44,123 nucleotides of DNA, taken from assembly GCA_016926755.1 (NCBI GenBank), contig JAFGNZ010000373.1, forward strand, positions 1-44,123, given 5' to 3'. Positions 39,992 through 44,005 of this stretch are shown here, piece by piece. This stretch comes from Myxococcaceae bacterium. GTDB lineage: Bacteria > Myxococcota > Myxococcia > Myxococcales > Myxococcaceae. The notes beneath the pieces are model-generated. The model worked only from the letters and a program-made list of their open reading frames with translations, was not told the DNA's origin and ran no database searches. The translations under genes were made by a program, and so were the position numbers. Each line of letters starts with the position of its first letter. Positions within the stretch are counted from its first letter, which is position 1.

Positions 39992-40591
39992 TCAGAGCAG
40001 TTCGATCCGATACCGAATCCGCTCCGTGGTGGGGACAAACGGATTCACCCGCTGTGTGCTCGCGCCATGGGTGGAAGCCGTTGCGTCGAACAGCTTGCGC
40101 CAACGCTCCTGATGGAAGCGGTTGTGAAACCAGGCGAAGTCCCGCTCCGACGCAGCAAGGCGCAGAAGCACGGGATCCTTCTCGAAGAAATCCAAGACCT
40201 TTTCATCCTGGTCTTGCGACGAAAAAAAGTACAATGCTGTCAGCCCGCCGATGCACCTGCTCCAGTCCTTATCCCTGTTGCCGCGACTCGGCAGGCTTGC
40301 CTTGCAACTTCGCTGGATGACCTCTAGCGTGAAGTCTATCGCTGCCGGGCCTCTGTTCAGCAGTGACGCCTTCGCACGAACGGCGCGCTGATAATTCCGA
40401 CACTCGTTGGTGTCCTCTCGCGAGCATTGGGCGACCTGCTCTTCGCTGACAGGAAACTCCAGCGCAACCTCAATGAGGGAAAGGTCCTCGAATACGGCTG
40501 GGCCGAACCGCAGATTGCACGCACAGAGGAGAAGCAGGCCTACTCCACCGGCGCGCAATCGAGAGCCTCGCGATCCACGGTGCACACTCAT
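39992..40591 (-). CDS. Hypothetical lipoprotein coupled to the caspase-like gene
   Basis: A 199-residue predicted lipoprotein, family not recognised. After a basic N-terminus (VHRGSRGSRLRAGG), the hydrophobic stretch ends LLLLCAC; the lipid site would be Cys23 or Cys25. The mature part has several Cys residues (EQVAQCSRED, NECRNY, IQRSCKAS, WSRCIGG) that could form two disulfides, and is otherwise helical and charged. The ATG overlaps the stop of the upstream gene (ATGA), so the two products are probably made in fixed ratio. A cytoplasm-made enzyme with a coupled periplasmic lipoprotein is a layout seen in effector-immunity pairs, but this is only a hypothesis. GC is lower than in the core genes. 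Confidence 0.75.
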   Translation of the reverse strand: MSVHRGSRGSRLRAGGVGLLLLCACNLRFGPAVFEDLSLIEVALEFPVSEEQVAQCSREDTNECRNYQRAVRAKASLLNRGPAAIDFTLEVIQRSCKASLPSRGNRDKDWSRCIGGLTALYFFSSQDQDEKVLDFFEKDPVLLRLAASERDFAWFHNRFHQERWRKLFDATASTHGASTQRVNPFVPTTERIRYRIELL

Positions 40592-41388
40592 GGCTGGAAC
40601 TTCTTCCATCCGTATTGCGCCGAGGCCTCGACATCCTTGAGGCTGCTCTTGTTGAAGTTCACCTTCCCGTCCGCCCCCTCGGCCCGCACCTTGAAAGTAC
40701 GAGCCCAGGTCTCAGCAAAGCCCTTCGTATTGCACCCATAGAACTTACATGAATCCTGAACAGCCACCATCGCCGCATTGGCAAACACGAACTTGCTGAC
40801 AAGGGCTCTGTATCTCGTGATGTCTGGAAGTGATACTATTTCACCCACGGTAGGGGAGACCGCGTCGTCATCTGAGTCGTGCTCGAGAGCGAGCCAGAGG
40901 TCTCTTGCCGCGTGCCCCAAAAACCACACTCGGCTGATGCTCCGATCCGGGAATTTCCCTAGCGCACTCCAGAAGCCTTCCGCGGGCGACAAGCGCGGAG
41001 AACCGGTCCACCAGTGGGTGTAAACCGTCATCTTGCTGGAGCCTGGCTTGGCGTAGGAGGCCACTTTCTTCCGGATGTAGTCGAGGTAATCAATCGCGCC
41101 CTGTGCGATGACCTTCCTCGTGTGGCCATATCGAGTCACCTGGAGACGTCCATCCTTGATGTTCTTCTCGAAGAACGAAGGCTCCGTTGCGTCGTCCTTC
41201 CACCGTCTCTCGTAGGCTGTTCCGTACACGTACCAATGAACATGCTCTTCCGGACGCGAGAGCAGCCGAGACTTGGCCGCAGACATGACTGGGTCGATAT
41301 AGTTGTACCAGGCCTTGTCATGATCTGGATCGGAGCCGTTGTACAGGCCAGGACCCCCGACGAGGATCACAAAGTGTTGCTCCGGCAT
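40588..41388 (-). CDS. Hypothetical protein with clan-CD (caspase-like) cysteine protease pattern
   Basis: A 266-residue protein without signal peptide. HFVILVGGPG at the start is a typical first strand. ISRVWFLGHA (His159) and DSCKFYGCNT (Cys219), each after a hydrophobic strand, stand in the order His then Cys about 60 residues apart, which is the arrangement of caspase, gingipain and DUF4347/CHAT-like folds (catalytic His at the end of strand 3 in a GH motif, catalytic Cys at the end of strand 4 in a GC motif). The helix GFAETWARTFKV after the Cys also fits. This is a pattern match without a search, so the fold is inferred. GGGAGGGG precedes the ATG. Lower GC suggests recent acquisition. 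Confidence 0.72.
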   Translation of the reverse strand: MPEQHFVILVGGPGLYNGSDPDHDKAWYNYIDPVMSAAKSRLLSRPEEHVHWYVYGTAYERRWKDDATEPSFFEKNIKDGRLQVTRYGHTRKVIAQGAIDYLDYIRKKVASYAKPGSSKMTVYTHWWTGSPRLSPAEGFWSALGKFPDRSISRVWFLGHAARDLWLALEHDSDDDAVSPTVGEIVSLPDITRYRALVSKFVFANAAMVAVQDSCKFYGCNTKGFAETWARTFKVRAEGADGKVNFNKSSLKDVEASAQYGWKKFQP

Positions 41389-41798: not shown

Positions 41799-41912
41799 AT
41801 GGAACCCCACGAAAAGAAGAGCCTGACCGAGCACGGCATCTGCACGAAGGAGCGGAACGAAGTCGCTTCAACGCTAGCGGAGGCTATCCTGGCGGAGCTG
41901 ATGGCTGCATGA
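41799..41912 (+). CDS. Short 37-codon frame coupled to the protease-like gene
   Basis: MEPHEKKSLTEHGICTKERN begins a frame of 37 codons that ends in TGA overlapping the ATG of the next gene (ATGA). The peptide is helical and charged with a C-terminal amphipathic part (STLAEAILAELMAA). The overlap suggests coupled translation, so it may be a small leader peptide or the tail of a lost gene. There is no good ribosome site before its ATG, and no homologue is recognised, so it may also be chance. Confidence 0.35.
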   Translation: MEPHEKKSLTEHGICTKERNEVASTLAEAILAELMAA

Positions 41913-42994
41913 GCCACTCCCATCAAGAGGCCAATGCCCCTCTGAACGCCAAGCTGCTCCCCTCGCTTCTGCTGTGCGTGCTGCTGTTGTCCGGATGCCA
42001 TGCCTGTTCCTCGAACACGGATCCCCCGGCGAGCGCCTCACAAGTTCTCCCCGTCTCCGAGTCCACTCCAGACGCTGGCCCCCTGCCTGAAAGCGCGGAT
42101 ACTCCTCCCCCTCCCCGCCCCAGGGAGCCCGATGGCATCGATTTCGATGACGAGGACCACCCCGAAGATGCCGCACCGTGGATGAAGGAGGCGGGGCCAT
42201 TCCCCGGAGGCATGTACCTGGCCGCCGGCAAGCCGGACTTCGCGAATCAATACCCCTCCACCGTCATGGTCTCCAGACTCGGCCCGCTCAAGGCGGCCCA
42301 GTGCAGTGGCGTCCTGCTGACTCCGAGCCTGGTCCTCACGGCTGCCAATTGCGTGTGCCGGCCGCGGAAGGTGCCCTCCGCCGAGGACAGGAACTCCATC
42401 CTGTTCGACACGTCCGCGTGTGTCGAGACTGCGTACATCACCACCACCGACTACGGCGAAGTCATCAACGAATACATCGCTGCTACGAACATGTATTCCA
42501 TTCCTGGCATGGTTCGCCCACATCCAGACTTCAAGCTTGTGCTCGATGAAGACAGGAACGTGGCGTTCAATCACGCGGATCTCGCCGTCATCCTCTTGCG
42601 CCATCCTGTGAAGTCCAGGTTCCCACCTGCCTCACTGTCGAGCCTGGACATCCGTGCGCAGGAGACGCTCATCATGGCAGGCTACGGTTACGGCCAGGAG
42701 TTCGGACAGATCGCCGGTCTTCGCTTCGTTCGAAGGAACAAAGTCCTGGGCGAAGCGGCGCCCAGCGACGATGGCCGGTTCCTCTACGAGCAGCAAGGCG
42801 CCTTCATGTACAGGGGTTTCAAGGGGGGCCCATGCTTTCGACAGGAGGGGAGCCACTACAAGCTCGCCGGTATCGCCAGCATCGGCACGGACAAGGAGCT
42901 GTCCCTCACGAGCGTCTCTTTCTATCGAGACTGGCTGGACTCAGAACTCCGCCATGCCTCGAAACATGCCCCCAAGCCCAAGAAGCAGCCTTGA
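41909..42994 (+). CDS. Trypsin-family lipoprotein with substituted catalytic residues (pseudoprotease)
   Basis: A 361-residue predicted lipoprotein (lipobox LLSGC, Cys30) with a Pro/Asp/Glu-rich linker to about residue 95 and a chymotrypsin-fold domain after it. QCSGVLLTPSLVLTAANC shows the usual region around the catalytic His, but the His is Asn147 (codon AAT). The Asp is kept (HADLAVILL, Asp224). The GDSGGP box reads GFKGGPCF: the Ser is Lys305 (codon AAG) and the preceding Asp is Phe. Two of three catalytic residues are therefore missing while the fold-defining residues (TAAxC, GYG, GGPCF) stay. It cannot work as a normal serine protease and may be a regulator, scaffold or binding protein for the active paralogue next to it. 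Confidence 0.88.
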   Translation: MSHSHQEANAPLNAKLLPSLLLCVLLLSGCHACSSNTDPPASASQVLPVSESTPDAGPLPESADTPPPPRPREPDGIDFDDEDHPEDAAPWMKEAGPFPGGMYLAAGKPDFANQYPSTVMVSRLGPLKAAQCSGVLLTPSLVLTAANCVCRPRKVPSAEDRNSILFDTSACVETAYITTTDYGEVINEYIAATNMYSIPGMVRPHPDFKLVLDEDRNVAFNHADLAVILLRHPVKSRFPPASLSSLDIRAQETLIMAGYGYGQEFGQIAGLRFVRRNKVLGEAAPSDDGRFLYEQQGAFMYRGFKGGPCFRQEGSHYKLAGIASIGTDKELSLTSVSFYRDWLDSELRHASKHAPKPKKQP

Positions 42995-43036
42995 GGCTCC
43001 TTCCACACGGGCCCAGTGCATCCAGGAATTGCCCCC

Positions 43037-44005
43037 ATGCTCAGGATCTCACCTCGAAGTCAGGCCATTCTCCCCGTGGCGGTGCCCCTGCTGCTCTCAC
43101 TGCTCCCTGGTTGCGCGGTGAGTCCAGAAGCGCCTCGCTCTCCTTCGGCCCACCTGGAATATCTCGTCCTGAACGGGCAGCCTGACTACAGGAACCACTA
43201 CGCGTCGACCGTTCAACTGACAGCGAACAACGGCACATGCAGTGGCGTTCTCGTCAAGCCTCAGCTCGTCCTGACAGCCGCTCATTGTTTTTGCTTCCCC
43301 ACGCAACTCAAGCCTGGTCGAGCTTACAGGTACACGCGCAGAAACAACTCCTCGGGCGACGAACTCAAGCTCACCTGCATGGAGAAGGCGGAGATCACCG
43401 CGATGCTCTACTCCATGGAGGAGGGAAACGAGGAGGGGAACCCAGATGGCTCGCCCAATCTTCAAGGGACCAGTCGTTCACTGCGGCTGATGGGGCGCAA
43501 CGGGTCCGTTCGTATCCATGAGGGATACGAGTTCTACACCGATGCGGCCGGGAACGTGACCGCATCCAAAGTGGATCTGGCCGTGGTTGAACTCGACAAG
43601 CCCTTCGACGGGATCGTCCCTGGCGGCAAGCTGGCGACTCGGGAAGTTCAGCCCGAGGAACCCCTCACCGTGGTGGGGTATGGCCTCGCTCCGGAAAAAC
43701 AATGGGGCATCCGCCACTTCGGCAGGAACAACGTGATGGATATCCGCATCTCCGTGGGCGATGACGGCCTCTTTGCCTTCCGCACGCGACCTGGAAATGA
43801 CCGGGCGGCCCATGCCTGGCGAGGGGATAGTGGTGGCCCCTGTTTTCGCGAAGATGCCCAAGGAAACCGCTGGCTCACCGGTATCGTCAGCACGGGACAG
43901 ATAACCCCCACGGGCATGGTGACGACCTTTACGAGTGGTTTCCATCACCGGGCATGGATCATGCGCCAGATGGGCCTCAGCAGCGCGCACACGGGCTCTC
44001 GCTGA
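43037..44005 (+). CDS. Trypsin-family serine protease lipoprotein
   Basis: A 322-residue predicted lipoprotein (lipobox LLPGC, Cys26) with a chymotrypsin-fold domain starting soon after. The triad is complete: His83 in LTAAHC, Asp180 in KVDLAVVEL, Ser265 in WRGDSGGPCF. Conserved Cys pairs (TCSGVL with AHCFCF, and GGPCF) fit disulfides. The active-site layout and several surrounding stretches (NHYASTVQL / NQYPSTVMV, CSGVL, GYG) are shared with the upstream pseudoprotease, so the two come from a duplication. AGGA stands 9 bases before the ATG; a GTG seven codons earlier is possible. Substrate is unknown; cleavage after basic residues cannot be claimed. Confidence 0.93.
   Translation: MLRISPRSQAILPVAVPLLLSLLPGCAVSPEAPRSPSAHLEYLVLNGQPDYRNHYASTVQLTANNGTCSGVLVKPQLVLTAAHCFCFPTQLKPGRAYRYTRRNNSSGDELKLTCMEKAEITAMLYSMEEGNEEGNPDGSPNLQGTSRSLRLMGRNGSVRIHEGYEFYTDAAGNVTASKVDLAVVELDKPFDGIVPGGKLATREVQPEEPLTVVGYGLAPEKQWGIRHFGRNNVMDIRISVGDDGLFAFRTRPGNDRAAHAWRGDSGGPCFREDAQGNRWLTGIVSTGQITPTGMVTTFTSGFHHRAWIMRQMGLSSAHTGSR

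Follow-up and report, generated by a model that had tools for sequence, protein, structure and literature searches.

Pseudoproteases have been well studied in animals, and to our knowledge few bacterial cases come with a defined protease partner. Among the closest known systems are the insect serine protease homologues, which have the S1 fold, have lost catalytic residues and act as non-catalytic members of protease cascades (PMC7580898, PMC1761132). Another is the Csp set of C. difficile, in which only CspB carries a catalytic triad, with CspA and CspC as pseudoproteases that regulate germination (PMC6636752, PMC12880746); Csp relatives in other clostridial families have intact triads (PMC6636752). 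A 2008 survey reported 42 dead serine protease homologues in 91 prokaryotic genomes, and a term search of that paper returned no description of a paired, multi-copy family of S1 lipoproteins (PMC2605481).

Here we describe two adjacent S1 (trypsin-family) lipoprotein genes, A and B, from a Myxococcaceae bacterium (assembly GCA_016926755.1, contig JAFGNZ010000373.1). They lie in a window of 44,123 nucleotides, by which we mean the whole stretch of DNA that was analysed. At somewhat better than even confidence, we propose that the pair represents a two-gene cassette present in many copies, in which a lipid-anchored protease (B) is accompanied and controlled by a selected, non-catalytic partner (A). 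A literature search, mostly outside subscription journals, did not find this paired family, and NCBIfam holds no model that names it.

The tandem pair in the window

The features of the pair, with the basis of each assignment, are as follows.

41909..42994, + strand: gene A, predicted catalytically dead upstream S1 (trypsin-family) lipoprotein, 361 aa (sequence, Pfam, model)
41909..42007, + strand: gene A signal peptide and lipobox LLSGC, with lipidated Cys33 (sequence)
42008..42217, + strand: gene A long linker, acidic and proline-rich, residues 34-103 (sequence)
42218..42946, + strand: gene A chymotrypsin-fold domain, residues 104-346 (AF2 pLDDT 87; VIA Z 22.5 over 217 residues)
42347..42349, + strand: gene A AAT, Asn147, in place of catalytic His57 (codon read directly)
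42578..42580, + strand: gene A GAT, Asp224, equivalent to Asp102 and retained (codon read directly)
42818..42823, + strand: gene A TTC AAG, Phe304 and Lys305, in place of Asp194 and catalytic Ser195 (codons; replaced clade-wide)
42995..43036, + strand: spacer of 42 bases from the A stop to the B ATG (sequence)
43037..44005, + strand: gene B, active-type downstream S1 lipoprotein, 322 aa from ATG (an alternative GTG start at 43016 is possible)
43112..43114, + strand: gene B Cys26 of the lipobox LLPGC (sequence)
43166..43168, + strand: gene B Val44, at the Ile16 position, the residue freed in zymogen activation (family column; structural alignment)
43283..43285, + strand: gene B CAT, His83, catalytic His57 (codon)
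43574..43576, + strand: gene B GAT, Asp180, catalytic Asp102 (codon)
43829..43831, + strand: gene B AGT, Ser265, catalytic Ser195, in GDSGGP (codon)

The original prediction had Asn147 (AAT), Lys305 (AAG) and Phe304 (TTC) replacing the His, Ser and Asp of the first protein, and an intact His83/Asp180/Ser265 triad in a second gene 42 bases later; direct re-reading of the codons returned the same residues and spacing. Its placement of both proteins among trypsin-family lipoproteins also stands, given the lipoboxes LLSGC and LLPGC and scores against Pfam Trypsin (PF00089) of 36.5 bits for A and 58.6 bits for B, both above the cut-off of 20.6. In NCBIfam, gene A has no named model and gene B matches only below threshold.

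Structural models agree with the family assignment. The AlphaFold model of A, built with 62 relatives, has a mean pLDDT of 87.1 and aligns in VIA-align with thrombin/trypsin-type S1 chains at Z 22.5 and rmsd 2.9 over 217 residues; that of B, built with 46 relatives, has a mean pLDDT of 85.7 and aligns at Z 24.8 and rmsd 2.5 over 203 residues. The structural match begins at chymotrypsin residue 17 in A and at residue 16 in B.

Protein A keeps the S1 profile and fold, and its catalytic residues are replaced (Asn147, Phe304, Lys305), as in an S1 pseudoprotease; judged by these replacements, it is almost certainly unable to cleave. Protein B has the S1 profile, the double-barrel fold, His57/Asp102/Ser195, Gly193, Asp194 and Ile/Val16, and is predicted to be a lipid-anchored serine protease bearing every mark of a classical zymogen. 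Val44 would become its free N-terminus and, because the lipidated Cys26 lies only 18 residues earlier, cleavage just ahead of Val44 would detach the enzyme from its lipid anchor as well. In A, about 77 residues separate the lipidated Cys from the domain.

Two other assignments were considered and dropped. Localisation was sought from the residue at lipobox position +2, where Lys is associated with the inner membrane in M. xanthus lipoproteins (PMC3222651); upstream proteins mostly have G, D or K there and downstream proteins mostly A, and neither window protein is assignable (His in A, Ala in B). No defence role is assigned to B from its PADLOC matches to LmuA (E 1.8e-6) and Avs1b, since their best stretch covers only some 30 residues in the vicinity of the His motif.

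Before the pair, on the minus strand, lie a gene of 266 aa (40588-41388) and a likely lipoprotein of 205 aa (39992-40609), both with no Pfam match. All-against-all comparison of flanking ORFs across the family found no conserved third gene; the shared genes belonged to widespread families (kinases, sensor proteins) or to a few syntenic sites, and none of them lay near the window pair. At another locus (L032 972-2864, G000:C241), two HtrA-like proteins of 313 and 317 aa are in tandem, the first with GFSGGP for GNSGGP and with His and Ser kept.

Two clades in a multi-copy family

Across the genome to which the window belongs (9.6 Mb, 409 contigs), Pfam gave 64 trypsin matches, many of them as adjacent pairs. 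From these loci and those of relatives we fetched 136 ORFs; 131 belong to the family and 113 are near full length. The original prediction took the window pair for a single, lineage-specific one; it is instead one of at least 45 complete tandem pairs with members of both clades described below, in a handful of myxobacterial genomes.

The family occurs in 7/96 Myxococcaceae genomes, the same 7 being found among 195 Myxococcota genomes. These are three genomes of the window's genus (that of the window itself, Hyalangium versicolor H56D21 and one more), G020 of another genus and, with small numbers, Archangium lansinium, Pyxidicoccus fallax and an Archangium MAG. In four further genomes of the window's genus no member was found. 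Occurrence is thus patchy, with many copies where the family is present and absence from close relatives. Against genome contigs, gene A as a lone query gave no match; profile A1 gave matches in Hyalangium versicolor, Archangium lansinium, Pyxidicoccus fallax and the Archangium MAG. No orthologues of the window pair were found in other genomes, the nearest relative being the own-genome paralogue C110, at 59% identity.

A tree built without the active-site columns splits upstream genes (64) from downstream genes (49). Gene order follows clade except in three cases: two upstream-type genes in tandem (C353), a triplet (G002) and a gene split between frames (C368). Among full-length rows, the His57/Asp102/Ser195 triad is broken in 27/63 upstream proteins, with 7 changes on the tree, versus 2/48 downstream proteins, counts over rows that are related by descent and so are not independent observations. 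The total lengths of the two subtrees are similar (32 upstream, 28 downstream). The two broken downstream rows are the orphan L110 and an L033 ORF with its first part out of frame, and wherever a complete pair has a broken upstream triad, its downstream triad is intact (18/18). The safer statement is therefore that several separate losses occurred upstream versus none in a paired, undamaged downstream gene. Besides the large subclade treated below, the separate upstream losses comprise replacements of Ser195 by Thr, Asp and Leu, and of Asp102 by Asn.

The two clades also differ beyond the triad. The Ile16 position holds Ile or Val in 36/41 downstream proteins versus Val in 2/63 upstream proteins, where Glu, Leu, Pro, Arg, Gln or Ala mostly occur, and the oxyanion-hole Gly193 is present in 48/48 downstream versus 47/63 upstream. 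In S1 enzymes, Asp194 holds the freed N-terminus. Judged by these positions, the classical zymogen mechanism appears to have been abandoned throughout the upstream family, even in members with an intact triad, which may explain how Asp194 became free to change. Many sister pairs have an upstream gene with an intact triad, so upstream catalysis is not dispensable everywhere.

The tree of the upstream genes mirrors that of the downstream genes (r = 0.656, 0/5000 permutations as high), and the nearest neighbour is the same in 34/45 pairs. This mirroring shows joint inheritance, that is linkage, and not binding; joint duplication of both genes may produce it on its own.

Several further members are of note in their own right. 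A second upstream subclade (L088, L090, L091, L067, L108, L030) has SG-SG-[EDA]-PC-like motifs for GDSGGPC, with Asp194 and Gly197 changed, Ser195 apparently kept and intact downstream partners. In 24/46 upstream proteins (e.g. L024, L026, L069) a second Cys follows three residues after the lipobox Cys (C-x-x-C), an arrangement hardly ever seen in downstream proteins. The orphan downstream-type gene L110 (2934-3926; G006:C79:332415-333158) has Asp for His57 and Asn for Asp194; no other downstream-clade gene whose domain is otherwise readable appears to be dead. At L039 (1050-2290, G000:C222), an upstream-type gene with Asp102 changed to Asn is retained beside a decayed B, in which the signal peptide and VYPG start are preserved and the sequence ends early.

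Loss and constraint in the Phe/Tyr194 subclade

Window gene A belongs to a subclade of 22 upstream genes from four genomes (SH-aLRT 99), 14 complete pairs among them, with the motif G-[FY]-x-GGPC instead of GDSGGPC. Asp194 is Tyr or Phe in 22/22 members. Ser195 is replaced in 21/22, by A, T, D, N, H, K, R, E or P, and kept in L059; His57 is kept in 5, Ser in 15 and Asn in 2; Asp102 is kept in 21/22. The changes of His and Ser noted in the window gene thus recur in homologues, together with that of Asp194, throughout a 22-member clade. The further idea that two catalytic residues were lost together does not hold: Asp194 is Phe or Tyr clade-wide, with Ser195 still present in L059 and His57 in five members. 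Most economically, Asp194 would have been lost first, then Ser195, then His57, on a subclade root that is weakly resolved.

Site 195 is hypervariable, with 10 residue types and 13 changes (98.6th percentile of columns, median 6), and its neighbours Gly193, Gly196, Gly197, Pro198 and Cys are invariant. The disulfide cysteines are kept in the dead clade, as is the lipobox Cys (22/22 with a letter in that column), and reading frames are open in nearly all 22 members. Beyond the marks of the fold, the clade has conserved positions of its own, for example Met256, Arg275, Tyr293, Gly297 and Glu330 of A. Three members have no downstream partner, L072 (G000:C162:30722-31690), L071 (G000:C396:18289-19233) and L079 (G002:C6:54132-55091), so a neighbour is not strictly required.

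The pseudo-enzymes evolve under purifying selection, with pairwise dN/dS of about 0.2-0.45. The dead upstream genes L033, L043 and L052 are close orthologues in three species (91-96% identical), with Ser57 and Ala195 in all and dN/dS of 0.21-0.39; another dead set of six gives 0.23-0.44 (NG86). At comparable distance, intact upstream genes give 0.23-0.35 and downstream genes 0.10-0.26. For window gene A itself, dN/dS against its C110 paralogue, also dead (Asn57, Asn195), is 0.30, a value that is only indicative at a dS of about 1.1, near saturation. We also looked for close homologues with intact triads together with relaxed selection, the combination expected of a decaying copy, and found instead Ser57 and Ala195 fixed across three species. 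The core of the original prediction, a dead upstream paralogue under selection beside an active-type enzyme, is therefore borne out by the 22-gene clade and its dN/dS. Decay and sequencing error are effectively excluded as causes of the changes in A, because of the dN/dS values, the kept disulfides and lipobox, and the clade-specific conserved positions.

Proposed role of the upstream protein and relation to known systems

The simplest reading makes A the partner of B, because a dead, membrane-anchored S1 protein is kept immediately upstream of a live one. A would bind its cognate B, or the substrate or activator of B, at the cell envelope, and would control the timing or the target of B's action, like the pseudoprotease subunits of insect serine-protease cascades. 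The original prediction named regulator, decoy or co-receptor as candidate roles. In this social predator the pair probably serves a process at the cell surface or between cells. The orphan pseudo-enzymes and the many sister pairs with an intact upstream triad count against A and B as partners. So does one analogy: the reported Csp heterodimer joins two pseudoproteases, CspC and CspA, without the active CspB (PMC12880746).

It is possible, and we hold the view tentatively, that A acts alone as a lipid-anchored binder of peptides, surface ligands or foreign protease inhibitors (a decoy), sharing a cassette with B merely through its origin by tandem duplication. The three pseudo-enzyme genes that lack a B neighbour (C162, C396, G002:C6) fit this, as A may act alone or in trans, and constraint persists (dN/dS of 0.25-0.37 for L064, L049 and L072); site 195, hypervariable in its invariant frame, resembles a recognition site. 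Against this, the trees of the two genes are mirrored, and most pseudo-enzymes lie directly before a downstream enzyme that is intact.

A more speculative and rather doubtful reading is that the cassettes form a diversifying recognition system of social predatory bacteria, in which the former serine site of the dead paralogue, hypervariable in its invariant loop, would be a specificity residue matching it to its own protease or to a partner-cell ligand. If true, each such genome would hold a large set of orthogonal protease/pseudoprotease pairs.

We consider it unlikely that A is an inhibitor of, or immunity factor for, B, with the pairs serving as polymorphic self/non-self or weapon modules, perhaps passed from cell to cell by outer-membrane exchange. 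Many highly divergent pairs per genome, their patchiness among close relatives and lipoproteins on both sides would suit such a role, as would the known exchange of outer-membrane lipoproteins between myxobacterial cells (PMC3325183). Sister pairs with intact-looking upstream proteins, the orphan pseudo-enzymes and flanks with no conserved third gene argue against it.

That A is a decaying duplicate is very improbable: the loss of catalytic residues and a truncated B copy elsewhere in the family (C222) would fit, but 22 members in four genomes, nearly all with open frames, have dN/dS well below 1, disulfides, lipobox and new conserved positions. A switch to an unusual catalytic mechanism, such as a Lys-based one with Lys305 at the former Ser195 position, is scarcely credible, as Lys occurs only in the window copy and A, T, D, N, H, R, E, P or S elsewhere.

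The favoured reading, with A as the controlling partner of B, can be set beside the known systems. Like the insect clip-domain homologues, A has the S1 fold, has lost catalysis and is kept as a non-catalytic protein. The insect proteins are, however, secreted animal proteins with clip domains, whereas the family described here consists of bacterial lipoproteins in adjacent pairs with loss only in the first gene; a Pfam search of A and B found no clip domain, only Trypsin, Trypsin_2 and sub-threshold chance matches, which makes A an analogue and not a member. The scabies mite SMIPP-S proteins (3h7o) are likewise dead S1 paralogues expanded in one lineage and match A weakly (E 0.005), but they are secreted mite proteins, not bacterial lipoproteins, and the link to A is the S1 fold only. 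The prokaryotic survey (PMC2605481) shares with this family catalytically dead serine protease homologues in prokaryotes.

The Csp set likewise has bacterial active and inactive paralogues, which work together, with intact relatives in other families and regulatory inactive members that form a heterodimer. Csp proteins, in contrast, are spore proteins with a subtilisin fold, and A and B are lipoproteins with a chymotrypsin fold that occur as many divergent pairs per genome, so the Csp set is a functional analogue only. The family offers a natural series across several genomes, in which the upstream subunit is intact, partly broken or fully dead and the downstream partner stays intact. The order in which catalytic parts are lost (I/V16, Asp194, Ser195, His57) becomes readable from it, and the many cognate pairs are material for testing whether dead paralogues control live ones. 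Taken together, the comparison suggests that the principle of a pseudoprotease with a protease is known, and that what is new here is a bacterial lipoprotein cassette, present in many copies, in which only the first gene shows the loss.
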